Source: Acidobacteriota bacterium
GTDB lineage: Bacteria; Acidobacteriota; Vicinamibacteria; Vicinamibacterales; CAVVIG01
DNA length: 38,032 nt
Assembly (NCBI GenBank): GCA_017883165.1
Contig: JADGOC010000019.1
Span: 1 to 38,032, forward strand
Reading direction: 5' to 3'
Positions 19,911 through 26,306 of this stretch are shown piece after piece; positions within the stretch are counted from its first letter, which is position 1, and every line of letters begins with the position of its first letter. Under the pieces are notes generated by a model. That model searched no databases. It had not been told where the DNA came from and was given only the letters and a program-made list of their open reading frames with translations. The position numbers were made by a program, and so were the translations under genes.

Positions 19911-20585
19911 TCACACGTCCAGCTTCCCCGTGTAGATCGCCATCCCGACGACGGCGTCGACGCCCAGCGCGTCGAGCCGGTCGATCTCGTCCCGCGTCGT
20001 GATCCCGCCCGCGGCGGTCACCCGGCGCGTCGTCGCGCCCCGGACGGCGAGAATCGCGTCGAAGTCGGTGCCCCGCATCAGGCCTTCGGCGTCCACGTGC
20101 GTGTAGAGGAACTCGCCGCAGTACGGCTCGAGCGCGCGCACCGCGTCCACCGGCGTGATCGCCAACCGCGTCTTCCACCCGTGAATGACGACGTGGCCGC
20201 CGCGGCTGTCGACGGCGGCGATGACGCGCGCCGCATCGACGGCGGCGGCCAGCTGTCTCGCGAATGCCAGATCGGGCGCGCCGTCCTTGAAGAAAGAAGA
20301 CCCGGCAATGACGTGTGTCGCGCCGGCCTCCAGCAGCTCCTCGGCGCGGGCCAGCGTGCGGACGCCGCCGCCAACGCGGCACGACAGCCGGCCCGCGAGC
20401 TGCCGCACGAGCGCCAGATTGTCGCCGGTGCCCATCGCGGCATCCAGATCGATGACCTGCACCTTCGGAAAATGCTCGAACCGCCGGACCCATCGGAAGA
20501 CGTCGTCGTCTCGTATCGCCAGGCGGTCGCCCTGCACGAGCTGCACGACGGCGCCGTTCTGGAGATCGATGGAGGGAATCAGCAC
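19911..20585 (-). CDS. hisA: ProFAR isomerase HisA
   Basis: A 224-aa (beta/alpha)8 barrel that converts ProFAR to PRFAR, the fourth step of histidine synthesis. The N-terminal strand LIPSIDLQNG carries the first catalytic Asp. The phosphate-binding segments CRVGGGVRT, AGSSFF and TAAGGITTRDEI are present, and HVDAEGLMRGTD corresponds to the second catalytic Asp region. It is slightly shorter than the usual ~240 aa. The start is GTG at 20585, 4 nt beyond the hisF stop, with GGAG upstream inside hisF. It is the last gene of the his operon, which gives the order H-F-A instead of the common H-A-F. Confidence 0.93.
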   Translation of the reverse strand: MLIPSIDLQNGAVVQLVQGDRLAIRDDDVFRWVRRFEHFPKVQVIDLDAAMGTGDNLALVRQLAGRLSCRVGGGVRTLARAEELLEAGATHVIAGSSFFKDGAPDLAFARQLAAAVDAARVIAAVDSRGGHVVIHGWKTRLAITPVDAVRALEPYCGEFLYTHVDAEGLMRGTDFDAILAVRGATTRRVTAAGGITTRDEIDRLDALGVDAVVGMAIYTGKLDV

Positions 20586-20589
20586 TGCA

Positions 20590-21351
20590 TCAACTCCAGG
20601 GCCTGACCGGAATGCCGTGCGCGGCGAGGTGACGCTTCAACGCGCGCACGTTGGTGTCGGCGTTGTGAAAGATAGACGCGGCGAGGGCGGCGTCGGCGCG
20701 CCCCGTCGTGAAGACGTCGACGAAGTCGTCCAGCCCGCCGGCGCCTCCGGAGGCCACGACCGGAATCGACACGGCCGACGACACGGCGGCGGTGAGCACG
20801 CAGTCGAACCCGGCCTTCGTGCCGTCGCGATCGATCGACGTCAGCAGGATCTCGCCGGCGCCGCGGCGTTCGGCTTCGCGCGCCCATTCGACCGCTTCCC
20901 GATCCGCGGCGACGCGTCCACTCCGGGCGTAGACCGCGAAGCGATCGCCTTCGCGCTTCGCGTCGATGGCGACGACAACTGCCTGGCTGCCGTATCGAGC
21001 CGCGAGCGTGGTGATCAACCCGGGGTCGGCGAGCGCCGCCGTGTTGAGGCTGACTTTGTCGGCGCCCGCGTCGATGGCCGCCGCGGCGTCATCTTCACTG
21101 TGTATGCCGCCTCCCACCGCGAGCGGAATGAACAGCTCGGCGGCGACGCGTCTGACGGTGTCGGCGCGCGCGCGGCGCGTCTCGATCGTCGCCGTGATGT
21201 CGAGGATGACGAGCTCGTCGATCCCCTCCGCGTTGTAGCGTCCCGCGAGCGCGGCGGGATCGCCGGCGGCGCGCAGCTCCTCGAAGTGGACGCCTTTTAC
21301 CACTTGGCCGTCGCGGACGTCGAGGCACGCGATGATCCGTTTGGACAGCAC
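20590..21351 (-). CDS. hisF: Imidazole glycerol phosphate synthase cyclase subunit HisF
   Basis: A 253-aa (beta/alpha)8 barrel, the cyclase half of IGP synthase. It joins PRFAR with ammonia channelled from HisH to give IGP and AICAR. Catalytic Asp is seen in [10 protein letters not shown] (strand 1) and the second in [13 protein letters not shown]. Phosphate-binding loops include AVGGGIHS and VASGGAGG. The GTG start at 21351 immediately follows the TAA of hisH with no intervening base, implying coupled synthesis with its partner. Confidence 0.96.
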
Positions 21352-21948
21352 TTACCGCGCCAGCTCCGCGAAGTTCCTGAGAACCGTCAGGCCGGCCTCG
21401 CCGGACTTCTCGGGATGGAACTGCACCCCGGCGACCTGTCCGCGCTCGACGACCGACGCGAAGAGTTCGCCGTGTTCGGTGGACGCGACGGTATCACCCG
21501 AGACGGGTGCGACGAAGCTGTGCGTGAAATAGAACTGCGTCCCCGGCGCCACGCCAGCGACGATCGAACCTTGGCGCCTGATGTCGATCGTGTTCCATCC
21601 GATGTGCGGCACTTTCACGTCGTTCCCCCGGAGCCGGTAGCAACGGCCCGCGAGCAGCCCCAGGCCCGCGCAATCGGGTGCCTCGTCGCTGCCTTCGAAC
21701 AGCCACTGCATGCCGAGGCAGATGCCGAGCAGCGGACGCCCCTCGCCGATCACGGCGAGAATCGCATCGGTCCATTCGCCGTGGAGGGCGCGGGTCGCGC
21801 CGAAGTGGCCGACGCCGGGCACGATGATGCCGCGCACGTCGGCGAGATCCGCGGGGGCCGACGGCACCATCACGTCCGCGCCGATGGCGCCGAGCGCTTT
21901 GCGCACCGACGCGAGATTGCCGGCGCCGTAGTCAATCAACGCGATCAC
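21352..21948 (-). CDS. hisH: Imidazole glycerol phosphate synthase glutaminase subunit HisH
   Basis: A 198-aa class I glutamine amidotransferase that supplies ammonia to HisF. The catalytic triad is visible: Cys77 in GICLGMQ, and His178 with Glu180 in QFHPEKSG. The N-terminus [14 protein letters not shown] is typical. The GTG at 21948 is chosen because it overlaps the hisB stop in a GTGA tetranucleotide and matches the family N-terminus; a longer in-frame reading would extend into hisB. Confidence 0.96.
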
Positions 21949-22520
21949 AGCAGGCCCTTCGTGCTCGGCAGCCTGCGCGCGAGCCGCCGGTCCTTCTCGC
22001 ATGCGAACCGGAGCGCCCGGGCGAAGGCCTTGAACACCGCCTCGATCTGATGATGGCTCGATCGGCCGTAGAGGACTTTCAGATGTACGTTCGCGCGCGC
22101 GCCGATCGCGAAGCCGTCGAAGAAATCGTGCACGAGCTCGGTCTGGAGGTCGCCGACGCGGGCCGCGCGCACTTTGAGATCGACGGCCGCGTGGGGTCGC
22201 CCCCCGAAATCGACTGCAGCCACGGCCAGCGTGTCGTCCATCGGCATGACGAAGTATCCCGCGCGATGGATCCCGCGCCGCCCTCCGAGCGCTTTCGAGA
22301 CCGCCTCGCCGAGCGCGATGCCGAGATCCTCGACGGTGTGATGTTGATCGACGTCAAGATCGCCCGCCGCGTCGATGCGCAGATCGAACGCGCCGTGGCG
22401 GGCGACGAGCTCCAGCATGTGATCGAGAAAGCGGATGCCGGTCCGTATCTGATACCGGCCCTTGCCTTCGAGCACGAGCGTCAGGGCAATCGCAGTTTCC
22501 GTCGTACGCCGTTTGATCAC
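21945..22520 (-). CDS. hisB: Imidazoleglycerol-phosphate dehydratase HisB
   Basis: A 191-aa dehydratase converting IGP to imidazole-acetol phosphate. The metal-binding motifs [27 protein letters not shown] and [18 protein letters not shown] are intact. It lacks the histidinol-phosphate phosphatase domain fused to HisB in enterobacteria, so that activity must come from elsewhere. The GTG at 22520 overlaps the hisC stop (GTGA). A longer in-frame upstream reading lies inside hisC and is rejected. Confidence 0.96.
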
Positions 22521-23560
22521 GCCGCGCCGCACAAGACCTCCTCGAGCACCTGAATGCATTGTTGTGTGTGGCGGACGAGCCCCGTCGTGATCCGCAGGCA
22601 GCCCTCGCAGCCCGGCTCGCAGGACCTGTCGCGAAGGTAGATGCCGCGCGCTTCGGCGCCGGCGATGAACGACTTCACCCGATCGCCCACCGCCACAAGG
22701 ACAAAATTCGCGTCGCTCCTCCAGTACTTCAAGTCGAGCCGGTCGCATGCCGCGTAGAGCAGCCGCTTGGATTCGGCGACCTCACGGAGATACGCAGTCA
22801 CGTGGTCGGGATCCTGGAGCGCCGCCTCGACCGCCACCACGGCGGCGATGTTCACGCTGTACACCGGCACGGCGGGGCGGATGCGGTCGAGCGCGTCCGG
22901 CGATCCGATGAGGCAGCCGATGCGCAGCCCCGCAAGGCCGTACGCCTTGGAGAACGTCCGGCCGACCACGACATTCGGAAAGGCGGGCAGATCCGGGATG
23001 AACGTCGTGACAGCAAATTCCGCGTACGCCTCGTCGACCAGCACGACGGCGCCGGCCGGCACGCGGCGCGCGATCGTGCGGACGGCGTCGAGCGACATCG
23101 ACACACCGGTCGGGTTGTTCGGATTCGTGAGAAACACCACTCGCGTCGCCGGCGTCACTGCCGCCAGCACGTCGTCCAACGGAAACTGAAAGTCGCGCGC
23201 CGGCATGACTCGCACGCATCGGCCGCCCGCCACGTTCGTGTCGTAGCCGAAGATCTCGAACGCGGGCTCCGGGACGATGGCTTCCGGCGCCGGTGCGCCC
23301 GGCGTCTGACGCAGCAGCATCATCGAGATCGCCATGATGCCTTCGTCGAGGCCGTTGATCAGCATGAGCCGATCCGGATCGACGCCGAAGTGGCGCGCGC
23401 ACGCCTCGGACGCCGCCGCGTACGGCGGATAGTACCCGACCTGGTCGGCGCGCATCGCCGCCAGCGCGGCCAGCACGCGAGGCGAACAGCCGCCGGTGTT
23501 CTCGTTCTGATGCAGCCGCAGGCCGGCGTACAGCTCCGCCGGTTTCTCGTAGTGGCTCAT
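22517..23560 (-). CDS. hisC: Histidinol-phosphate aminotransferase HisC
   Basis: A 347-aa fold-type I PLP aminotransferase that converts imidazole-acetol phosphate to histidinol phosphate. Features seen: substrate/PLP contacts in [17 protein letters not shown], the Schiff-base Lys in [14 protein letters not shown], and the C-terminal Arg in CLRITTG. The ATG at 23560 overlaps the hisD stop in an ATGA. The N-terminus [11 protein letters not shown] matches the conserved LNxNENP-type segment, with TGG in place of the usual proline. Confidence 0.95.
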
Positions 23561-24810
23561 CGCGGCCGCGCCTCGAGCCGTTCCTCAATTGAGGCGGCGT
23601 GCGCGTCCAGCCCCTCGGCGCGCGCGAGCGGAACGATGATCGGCGCGAGCCTGGCGAGGCCGTCGCGCGTCACGCGCTGCACCGACATGACGCGGACGAA
23701 GTCGGCGGCGCTCAGGCCGCCGCGGAATCGCGCGGCGCCGGAGGTCGGCAAGACGTGGTTCGAGCCGGTCGCGTAATCGCCAGCGGCCTGCGCCGCGTAC
23801 GGGCCGACGAATACCGCGCCGGCGGTGAGCGGCCCACGCGTCAGCGTCTCGTCGCCGACCACGAGGTGCTCGGGCGCGATGCGGTTGGCGAGCGCGGACG
23901 CGTCAGCGGCGTTGCGCGTGACGATCGCCGCTCCGTGCGCGGCGAGCGATCGGCTGGCGATGGCGCGCCCGCGCGCCTGCGTCTTCACCGCGGCGGCCAC
24001 GCGCTCGGCCAGCGCGCGGCTCCAGGTAATGAAGAGCGACCGAGCGTCGGGATCATGCTCGGCTTGCGCGACCAGATCCGCCGCGATCCAGTCCGCGCGG
24101 CCCGTGCCGGCGACGATGACGACCTCGGTCGGCCCGGCGAAGAAATCAATCGCGCAGTCGCGCGAGACCAGCGATTTGGCCGTGGCGACGTAGCGGTTGC
24201 CCGGCCCGACGATCTTGTCGACGCGCGGGATCGTGCGGGTGCCGTACGCGAGCGCCGCGATGGCGTGCGCGCCGCCGACGCGGAAGAGCCGCGTCACGCC
24301 TGCTTCGAGCGCCGCCGCCATCACCGCCGGCTCGGGACGCGGACACACCACGATGATCTCGCGGACGCCCGCGACACGCGCCGGGACGGCGGTCATCAGC
24401 AGGGACGACGGCAGCGGAAAGCGTCCGCCCGGCACGTAGCAGCCGACGCGGGCGATCGGTTCGACGCGCTGCTCGACGACCACGCCTGGTACGACCTCGA
24501 GATCCCAGTGTTTCGGGATTTGCCTGAACGCGACCCGCGCGATGTGACGCGCGGCCCGCTGGATGGCGCGCCGCACATCGGCCGGCACGCGCGCGGCCTG
24601 CTCGCGCATTTCGTCGAGGCCGACTTCGATCGGCGGCCGCACATCGTCGAACCGGCGTGCGAAGTGGAGCAGCGCACGGTCGCCGTCCTTTCGCACGCTG
24701 TCCACGATCGCGCGGACGCGGCGGTCGAGCGCGCGGCCGCCGCGAGCGTCGTCTCCCCCCATCAGCCGCTCAAGAGCCGTGCGATTGGCCGCGTTGATGA
24801 TCCGGAACAT
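23557..24810 (-). CDS. hisD: Histidinol dehydrogenase HisD
   Basis: A 417-aa Zn-dependent dehydrogenase catalysing the last two oxidations from histidinol to histidine with NAD+. Conserved segments seen: GCYVPGGRFPLPSSLLMTAVP, GGAHAIAALAYGT, KIVGPGNRYVATAK, DFFAGPTEVV, AQAEHDPDA with zinc ligands, IAPEHL and GSNHVLPT. It is slightly shorter than the ~430-aa norm. The ATG at 24810 shares one base with the hisG stop (TGATG), so the two are coupled. Confidence 0.96.
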   Translation of the reverse strand: MFRIINAANRTALERLMGGDDARGGRALDRRVRAIVDSVRKDGDRALLHFARRFDDVRPPIEVGLDEMREQAARVPADVRRAIQRAARHIARVAFRQIPKHWDLEVVPGVVVEQRVEPIARVGCYVPGGRFPLPSSLLMTAVPARVAGVREIIVVCPRPEPAVMAAALEAGVTRLFRVGGAHAIAALAYGTRTIPRVDKIVGPGNRYVATAKSLVSRDCAIDFFAGPTEVVIVAGTGRADWIAADLVAQAEHDPDARSLFITWSRALAERVAAAVKTQARGRAIASRSLAAHGAAIVTRNAADASALANRIAPEHLVVGDETLTRGPLTAGAVFVGPYAAQAAGDYATGSNHVLPTSGAARFRGGLSAADFVRVMSVQRVTRDGLARLAPIIVPLARAEGLDAHAASIEERLEARPR

Positions 24811-25697
24811 CACAGCACGATCTTGTTGAGCGGGTATTCGACGATGCCGTGGGCGCGTGCGTGCTTGAGGCGCGGAATCAGATCGCGGGCCGTGCGCTCC
24901 TCGATGATCGTGTTGACGGCGACCCAATCCGCGTCACTGAGCGGCGAGATCGTCGGCCGCTGCAGCGCCGGCAGGAGCGCGAGCACGCTGTCGAGGTCCG
25001 CGCGCTGGACGTTGAGCATCAAGCCGACGCGCCCCTGCGCCTCGATGGCCGCCTTCAAGAGCAACGCGAGGTTGGCGAGCTTGGTCTGTTTCTGAGGATC
25101 CGCGAGCGCCGCGCGGTTCGCCACCAGCTGCGTGGACGACTCCATCACCGTATCGATGACGCGCAGCCGGTTCGCCCGCAGCGTCGATCCGGTCTCGGTC
25201 GCTTCGACGATCGCATCGGCGAGGACGGGCGGCTTCACTTCGGTGGCGCCCCACGAGAACTCGACTTTCACCTCGATCTGGTGCCGCGCGAAATACGCGC
25301 GCGTCACACGCACCAGCTCGGTCGCGATCGTGGCGCCGGCGAGATCCTGCGGCGTCCTGATGGCCGAGTCGTCCGGCACGGCGAGCACCCAGCGCACGGT
25401 ACCGTAGCTCTGCTTCGCGTACACGAGATCTGCGATGCTGGTGAGGACGCCCGTCGTGCCGTCGCCGAGCTCGTGCTCGGCGATCCAATCGCGGCCGGTC
25501 AGCCCCGCGTCGAGCACGCCGTCCGAGACATAGCGCGCCATCTCCTGCGCGCGAATCAGCATGCACTCGATCTCGGGATCGTCGATCGACGGATAATACG
25601 ATCGCGCGCCGACGTAGATGTTGAAGCCCGCCTTAGCGAAGAGCTGGATCGTCGCGTCCTGCAGGGAGCCTTTGGGGATCCCAAGTTTCAATTTCAT
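24810..25697 (-). CDS. hisG: ATP phosphoribosyltransferase HisG, long form
   Basis: A 295-aa long-form HisG, the committed and normally feedback-inhibited step joining ATP and PRPP. The catalytic half starts [19 protein letters not shown] and includes [10 protein letters not shown] and the PRPP-binding loop region around [13 protein letters not shown]. The C-terminal ~80 residues ([20 protein letters not shown] and on) form the ACT-like histidine-sensing domain, so HisZ should not be needed. The ATG at 25697 lies 58 bp after hisI across a gap holding a 9-bp tandem repeat, the only real gap in the operon. Confidence 0.96.
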
Positions 25698-25755: not shown

Positions 25756-26076
25756 TCATTGTTCTTCGCCTAACGTTCGAAAGAAACATGTCCGTTGGCC
25801 CGTATGGCAGACGTTGCCGTCGCCCAGGCGTTTCACCTTGATCAGCACCGTGTCGTCGTCGCAGTCGACGAGGATCTCGGCGACCGCCAGGCGGTTGCCG
25901 GAGGTTTCGCCCTTCATCCACAACCTCGCGCGCGTGCGGCTGAAGAACGTCGCGTAGCCGGTACGCCGCGTTTCGGCGAGCGCGTCCTCGTTCATGAAGC
26001 CGACCATCAGGACTTCCGAGCTGTCGGCATCCTGGATGACGGCGGGAATCAAGCCGTTCAGTTTCGTGTAGTCCAT
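25756..26076 (-). CDS. hisI: Phosphoribosyl-AMP cyclohydrolase HisI
   Basis: A 106-aa monofunctional cyclohydrolase that opens the adenine ring of PR-AMP. Conserved features: LIPAVIQDADSSEVLMVGFMN at the N-terminus, SRTRARLWMKGETSGN, the metal-binding acidic cluster DCDDDTVLIKV, and zinc cysteines in VCHTGQRTCFF. It lacks the HisE pyrophosphohydrolase domain that is fused in many bacteria. It is the first structural gene of the operon. Its ATG directly abuts the TTTTTGTTTTT tract of the upstream terminator hairpin, and no Shine-Dalgarno site is visible other than GGGG in the hairpin arm. Confidence 0.95.
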   Translation of the reverse strand: MDYTKLNGLIPAVIQDADSSEVLMVGFMNEDALAETRRTGYATFFSRTRARLWMKGETSGNRLAVAEILVDCDDDTVLIKVKRLGDGNVCHTGQRTCFFRTLGEEQ

Positions 26077-26108
26077 AAAAACAAAAACCCCGCCGGCTTC
26101 CGGCGGGG
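26077..26108 (-). terminator. Attenuator terminator of the his operon
   Basis: On the minus strand CCCCGCCGG (26100-26108), loop AAG and CCGGCGGGG (26088-26096) form a 9-bp G+C-only stem, followed at once by TTTTTGTTTTT (26077-26087) and then the hisI ATG. This is a textbook intrinsic terminator. The receptor gene upstream has its own hairpin, so this one is placed to stop transcripts before they enter hisI. Confidence 0.85.
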
Positions 26109-26147
26109 CGTTGCGAGATTCGTCAGCGTTTGAGGAATCCGGTTAGA

Positions 26148-26234
26148 TCACGCGCAACTCCGCCGGCGGCCGCCCGGGCAATGGCGATGGTGCGCACGAT
26201 GGCGGAGCGAAGACAGTGAAGACAGAGAAAACAT
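26148..26234 (-). CDS. hisL: Putative his leader peptide (four His codons in seven)
   Basis: A 28-codon ORF reading MFSLSSLSSLRHRAHHRHCP and then GGRRRSCA, stop TGA at 26148-26150. His codons are 12, 15, 16 and 18. Pairing segments: CTCCGCC (26201-26207, at the start of the His run) with GGCGGAG (26158-26164); and CCGGCGG (26160-26166) with CCGCCGG (26100-26106), the 5' arm of the terminator. A ribosome stalled at the His codons would cover the first segment and free the second to block the terminator. No Shine-Dalgarno site is visible; a -10-like TAGGCT ends 9 nt upstream. The Ser/Leu-rich half overlaps a 9-bp repeat, so its exact sequence may not matter. The symbol marks function by analogy, not homology. 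Confidence 0.68.
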   Translation of the reverse strand: MFSLSSLSSLRHRAHHRHCPGGRRRSCA

Positions 26235-26243
26235 CAGGGGGAC

Positions 26244-26273
26244 AGCCTAATCGATCGACAATCGTGGTGTCAA
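26244..26273 (-). promoter_or_regulatory. Predicted sigma70-type promoter of the his operon
   Basis: On the minus strand, TTGACA (26268-26273) and TAGGCT (26244-26249) are separated by 18 nt. The -35 is a perfect consensus match; the -10 has T, A and the final T. Transcription would begin within a few bases of the leader ATG at 26234. Confidence 0.5.
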
Positions 26274-26306
26274 AGGCCGGCGGGTCTCCCCGCCGGCCTC
26301 TGACAC
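26267..26306 (-). terminator. Long hairpin after the TonB-dependent receptor gene
   Basis: A near-perfect inverted repeat: GTGTCA, one mismatch, AGGCCGGCGGG, loop TCTC, CCCGCCGGCCT, one mismatch, TGACAC. That is 17 paired bases plus one mismatch with a 4-nt loop. It lies 14 bp beyond the receptor stop codon. Only a short T run follows on the minus strand, so it may work as a strong stem or bidirectional barrier. Its distal base contains the -35 of the his promoter. Confidence 0.6.

Follow-up and report, generated by a model that had tools for sequence, protein, structure and literature searches.

Upstream of the his operon of a soil bacterium from the class Vicinamibacteria (Acidobacteriota), we identify what we take, with a probability of about 0.92, to be a ribosome-mediated transcription attenuator, through which the level of charged tRNA-His would govern the operon. 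The his attenuation familiar from enterics probably also works in Acidobacteriota, since nearly the same arrangement precedes the his genes in most relatives. The mechanism is classical; what sets it apart is the acidobacterial host, a sequence family of its own and a likely leaderless start. A preliminary description of this DNA had proposed a his attenuator, and its overall reading is supported by the His codons, the terminator and covariation of the antiterminator in relatives, with two corrections: the pairing between segments 1 and 2 is not conserved, and the antiterminator had been described too sparingly.

Organization of the his locus

The window, by which we mean the whole analysed stretch of 38,032 nucleotides, is a contig from a 4.24-Mb draft genome of 334 contigs with a single hisI; among named genomes, its nearest relatives are Vicinamibacteria. 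On the minus strand, the end of a gene whose ORF we read as a TonB-type receptor is followed by a promoter, a leader ORF, a GC-rich hairpin, a U tract and hisI (Table 1), the ATG of which lies at 26074-26076. Together with the genes downstream, this gives a complete-looking his pathway cluster, hisI-G-D-C-B-H-F-A, as judged from NCBIfam matches: hisG, hisD, hisB, hisH and hisF score above the model cut-offs, and for hisC and hisA the respective models are the best matches, with scores below the cut-offs.

Table 1. Features of the his operon and its leader region in the window
Feature	Position	Strand	Remark
-35 element TTGACA	26268..26273	-	Overlaps tail of the upstream gene's terminator-like hairpin; TTGAC kept at similar distance in most relatives
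-10 element TAGGCT	26244..26249	-	18-nt spacer from -35; 9 nt to leader ATG
his leader ORF, 28 codons, MFSLSSLSSLRHRAHHRHCPGGRRRSCA	26148..26234	-	Probably leaderless; His-rich ORF at equivalent place in relatives
Regulatory His codons 12, 15, 16, 18	26181..26201	-	Window sequence
Segment 1 CTCCGCC	26201..26207	-	Pairs with segment 2 in window; pairing not conserved
Segment 2 CCGGCGG-A-GTTGCG, antiterminator 5' strand	26153..26166	-	Within the end of the leader ORF
Segment 3 CGCAAC-GCC-CCGCCGG, antiterminator 3' strand	26100..26115	-	Covariation in relatives
Segment 4 CCGGCGGGG	26088..26096	-	Window sequence
Intrinsic terminator hairpin, segments 3:4, 10 bp, about -21 kcal/mol	26087..26109	-	Kept in 66/70 relatives
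Terminator U tract TTTTTGTTTTT	26077..26087	-	Directly adjoins hisI ATG
hisI, first structural gene	25756..26076	-	NCBIfam NF000768 above cut-off
hisG, hisD, hisC, hisB, hisH, hisF, hisA, in that order	19911..25697	-	NCBIfam matches

All leader elements named in the preliminary description are present on the minus strand, correct to the base. The sequence and spacing of the TTGACA-N18-TAGGCT promoter agree, as do the 28-codon ORF with histidine at codons 12, 15, 16 and 18 and the segment 3:4 terminator with a U tract abutting the hisI ATG; the terminator is, moreover, conserved in relatives. The GC-rich -10 box TAGGCT was not flagged by a generic promoter scan. With four His codons, the window leader stands at the poor end of its kind, below most relatives. 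When both strands of the window were scanned for short ORFs with at least four His in eight codons followed by a terminator, the his leader was the sole match, as against none in ten shuffled windows.

Two features of the flanks deserve mention. The upstream gene has a terminator-like hairpin of its own (26271-26301, GGCCGGCGGGGAGACCCGCCGGCC), which extends into the -35 box of the his promoter. At the other end, hisI lacks an ordinary Shine-Dalgarno sequence; the sole purine-rich stretch in 26074-26096 is GGCGGGG of segment 4, which transcription read-through may also release for hisI translation.

Conservation of the leader in Acidobacteriota

How widely is this arrangement shared? A first set of hisI upstream sequences was gathered from relatives found through hisG. 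Counting the window, 70 of these regions have a candidate leader ORF. In 66 of the 70 it is followed by a strong hairpin ending in a U-rich tail, usually some 30 nt past the leader stop codon, with a median stability of -20 kcal/mol. A typical leader among the relatives has 6 His codons (median; range 3-9) in 24 residues, as exemplified by MFTVHHHPRHHFHHGHKPAGAA in locus L011. A second set, partially overlapping the first, comprised 75 named genomes of Vicinamibacteria and Terriglobia, including Bryobacterales, Solibacteraceae and Acidobacteriaceae: a His-rich leader precedes hisI in 69 of them, and a terminator stands behind the leader in 67. A strict test for ORF plus terminator, with a more stringent terminator cut-off, was passed by 63 of the 69 genomes with a His leader; 1,592 control windows taken at these loci and 345 shuffles yielded no pass at all. 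The window's own family and order likewise have a His-rich ORF and terminator before hisI.

Further families in the phylum sample also feature His leaders, some of them before a quite different hisG. In families f34 and f41 (L104-L111) and in L098, no His-rich leader was found in the stretch examined upstream of hisG, so that the attenuator is either absent there or placed elsewhere; the His leader is therefore widespread but not universal in the phylum. Family f31 (L116; also L114 and L117) contains two tandem His-rich leader ORFs before hisG, for instance MVIATVSRHHHHHHPILGPGTGARAV and, further down, an ORF ending in HAHHHHHVHFPPG, which look like two attenuators in series. Another variant is seen in L036, L041 and L049, order-level relatives from family f10: His leader and hairpin are kept upstream of hisI, the U tract is missing, and the region around the start is AAGGA-AATCCGGTT-ATG-like in all three. 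Control in these loci may be translational.

What is conserved in the leaders is the amino acid and not the RNA letters, since CAT and CAC swap freely in relatives (207 and 218 of 425 leader His codons, respectively). CAT nevertheless makes up about half of the leader His codons (207/425) as opposed to 13% (19/146) in hisG of the same loci, with an odds ratio of 6.3 and a Fisher p of 2e-15 in a comparison among leaders that kinship keeps from being independent of one another. The excess could stem from slower decoding, from the demands of RNA structure or from lower GC pressure.

Antiterminator and terminator pairings

The antiterminator of the window is formed by CCGGCGG (26166-26160) pairing with CCGCCGG (26106-26100) and by GTTGCG (26158-26153) pairing with CGCAAC (26115-26110), giving 7 + 6 bp with a small internal loop. 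The pairing of segments 2 and 3 put forward in the preliminary description is supported by covariation in relatives; its extent had been drawn too short, with the GTTGCG:CGCAAC part left out. Portion 26100-26109 of segment 3 doubles as the 5' arm of the terminator, so that the two structures are mutually exclusive, as is characteristic of attenuators.

Selection on the antiterminator was assessed by comparing the fit of segment 2 to segment 3 of its own genome with its fit to segment 3 of other genomes. The duplex is more stable within than between genomes (-19.9 vs -17.9 kcal/mol; z -6.6; 0 of 20,000 permutations), and the same comparison gives z -7.8 in the named set and z -6.4 for the Terriglobia-like loci alone. 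Against its own shuffles, a statistic that sequence kinship inflates, segment 2 reaches a mean z of -1.6, with 29 of 63 relatives at the 5% level or better and 34 not. The signal in a single genome is therefore modest, and it is the comparative signal that carries the argument. In 21 aligned Terriglobia leaders, 15 cells of the 2:3 pairing have both sides changed, with compensatory exchanges such as U-A/C-G at columns 21:97 and A-U/G-C at 23:95. Paired cells amount to 89.6% in this alignment, compared with 31-51% in controls slid by one to three columns, which preserve kinship and agree with the shuffle statistics. The 3:4 terminator pairing likewise shows double compensatory changes, with far lower values in the slid controls. 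When a MAFFT alignment of the family was folded with RNAalifold, the terminator was recovered and the long-range antiterminator missed, because the alternative structures are mutually exclusive and the spacer varies; duplex and pair-count tests were used in its place. The elements, their conservation and spacing, and the covariation of both pairings can be read directly from the sequences.

Segment 1 presents a different picture. The preliminary description had it pairing with segment 2, and in the free fold of the window leader CTCCGCC does so. Over 63 relatives, however, the comparable pairing does no better than chance (mean z -0.18, with p <= 0.05 in 6 of the 63), with z -2.1 for the comparison within versus between genomes, and we reject the 1:2 protector as a conserved element. 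A conserved protector, which favours the terminator in RNA free of ribosomes, is a hallmark of the four-segment attenuators of the enteric trp/his type, and is not essential to a two-state switch. As the 1:2 pairing is unconserved, we treat the conserved device as a switch between two states, 2:3 and 3:4.

A probably leaderless start

A TANNNT motif ends 8-10 nt before the leader start codon in 98 of the 129 distinct upstream sequences compared, with TTGAC further up and a strong preference for an 18-nt spacer. The combined promoter pattern occurs in 91 of the 129, against a mean of 0.32 in shuffles, and the same sequences show no enrichment of a Shine-Dalgarno motif before the leader start. 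A close -10-like signal is a criterion for calling leaderless genes (PMC3160421), and the his leader has both the TANNNT near its start codon and no Shine-Dalgarno sequence. Because TTGAC-N18-TANNNT lies 8-10 nt before the ATG and a Shine-Dalgarno sequence is missing, the leader transcript is probably leaderless, with a predicted 5' untranslated part of about 1-4 nt. This start is an addition to the preliminary description.

Proposed mechanism and alternative explanations

A leader ORF enriched in His codons, the cognate codons of the operon, and an intrinsic terminator between this ORF and hisI are what is expected of an attenuator. From these features we infer a start site, stalling, termination and a response to histidine as follows. 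RNA polymerase would start on the leader ATG or no more than a few nucleotides from it, and translation of the leader by a ribosome would follow. With His-tRNA scarce, the ribosome would stall on the His codons and leave segment 2 free to pair with the emerging segment 3 before segment 4 is made, allowing read-through into hisI-hisA. With His-tRNA plentiful, it would reach the stop codon and cover segment 2; segment 3 would then pair with segment 4, and transcription would end before hisI.

The geometry of the window suits this scheme. Given the usual size of a ribosome footprint, the leading edge of the ribosome remains before segment 2 whichever of the four His codons occupies the A site. 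The preliminary description had argued that segment 2 is left free by a ribosome stalled at codon 18 and hidden by one that has reached the stop codon; this holds for a stall at any His codon, and the spacing in relatives fits, with medians of 34 nt from the first His codon of the cluster to segment 2 and of 10 nt from the end of segment 2 to the stop codon. Computed folds concur: RNA up to segment 3 adopts the antiterminator, and RNA below a ribosome at the stop codon adopts the terminator. After segment 4 has been made, the terminator is favoured energetically, and this is so even for RNA below a stalled ribosome. Antitermination must therefore be kinetic, with the choice made during transcription. 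This is usual for attenuators.

But could the stall act on translation instead? A stalled ribosome would then still switch the RNA structure, with its main effect on ribosome access to hisI. The U tract adjoins the hisI ATG, GGCGGGG of segment 4 is the sole purine-rich stretch before it, and L036, L041 and L049 retain His leader and hairpin without the U tract, all of which would suit translational control. The U-rich tail behind the hairpin in 66 of 70 relatives speaks against it, as does the position of the hairpin, which in many relatives lies 30-200 nt upstream of hisI and hence too far away to mask the hisI start; we regard this explanation as improbable. Transcription attenuation is also preferred over the plainer notion that the hairpin merely terminates the upstream gene, or is a constitutive weak terminator, next to an incidental His-rich ORF. 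Intergenic terminators are common, and the thermodynamic fold of the window leader alone is unremarkable and not unusually stable (z -1.37). Yet the upstream gene already ends in a separate terminator-like hairpin ahead of the promoter, of the 69 relatives with a His leader 63 combine ORF and terminator, versus 0 of 1,592 controls, and the covariation between segments 2 and 3 would be left unaccounted for. The conservation tests contradict a plain terminator, which we consider very improbable.

Sensing of histidine by other means, through a T-box, a metabolite riboswitch or a protein repressor such as HisR, is the least credible of the explanations and would surprise us greatly. There are precedents, as his genes are under T-boxes and HisR in Firmicutes and Actinobacteria (PMC9413887). 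In the window, however, neither a T-box nor any other cis-regulatory family appears at Rfam gathering scores, the T-box covariance models have no match upstream of the his operon, and even at E values up to 10 no relevant Rfam family emerges, the leader giving nothing but chance matches. The gap between promoter and ORF is too small for such an element, and the conserved His codons need none. The preliminary description had staked ribosome-mediated attenuation on the conservation of the His codons and alternative pairings in relatives: His codons and terminator are kept across two classes, and the 2:3 pairing covaries.

Significance and relation to known systems

We offer a broader interpretation tentatively, at somewhat less than even odds: Acidobacteriota may hold an old and widespread class of leaderless his attenuators of their own, in which the ribosome loads at the 5' end of nascent RNA leaving the polymerase and two states suffice without a protector, and histidine may be the sole amino acid so controlled in the sampled genomes. 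A search before trpE, ilvB and leuA in about 20 genomes, where these genes may not be first in their operons, returned no attenuators except for one weak ORF at leuA of L260.

The breadth of the family in a poorly studied phylum and its likely leaderless start make the system worth testing. A predicted attenuator with a clear signal, missed by Rfam, occurs in no fewer than two classes of a phylum that is abundant in soil. If leaderless, it would let one study in a natural setting how a 70S ribosome gets onto a nascent 5' end quickly enough to control the polymerase in front of it. It also provides a histidine-responsive switch to a phylum for which genetic tools are scarce.

His attenuation is known from Gammaproteobacteria, to which three lineages of Firmicutes have been added more recently (PMC9413887). 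A 2010 survey found almost no predicted Acidobacteria attenuator with a function (PMC2965389). The preliminary description knew of no his attenuation in Acidobacteriota, and we likewise found no report in the open-access literature searched; one in a subscription journal or a database is possible.

Finally, we would like to place the acidobacterial leader into the context of the systems it resembles. With the enteric hisL attenuator (RF00514) it shares a leader peptide with His codons, alternative terminator and antiterminator structures and control of the his operon. It differs in having hisI and not hisG as the first gene, fewer consecutive His codons, no conserved 1:2 protector and a predicted leaderless start, and in going unrecognised by the Rfam model: RF00514 has no match in the window and none above cut-off in 99 Acidobacteriota genomes, with sub-threshold matches only. 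The Firmicutes his attenuators, found in the Bacillus cereus group, Peptostreptococcaceae and Erysipelotrichales, similarly combine a His-rich leader with terminator and antiterminator and also lack a match to RF00514; they differ in phylum, in sequence and in their three to five His codons in a row, and a leaderless start is not mentioned in the accessible part of that report (PMC9413887). Small upstream ORFs rich in the cognate residue are likewise known from mycobacteria, a lineage with many leaderless mRNAs (PMC4633059); in contrast to the leader described here, these are rich in cysteine, and attenuation was proposed for them as speculative. The precedent for a leaderless attenuator is trpL of Sinorhizobium meliloti, which responds to tryptophan in an alphaproteobacterium and encodes a peptide that also functions in trans, and whose leader RNA begins directly with the ATG of its ORF (PMC7298713).
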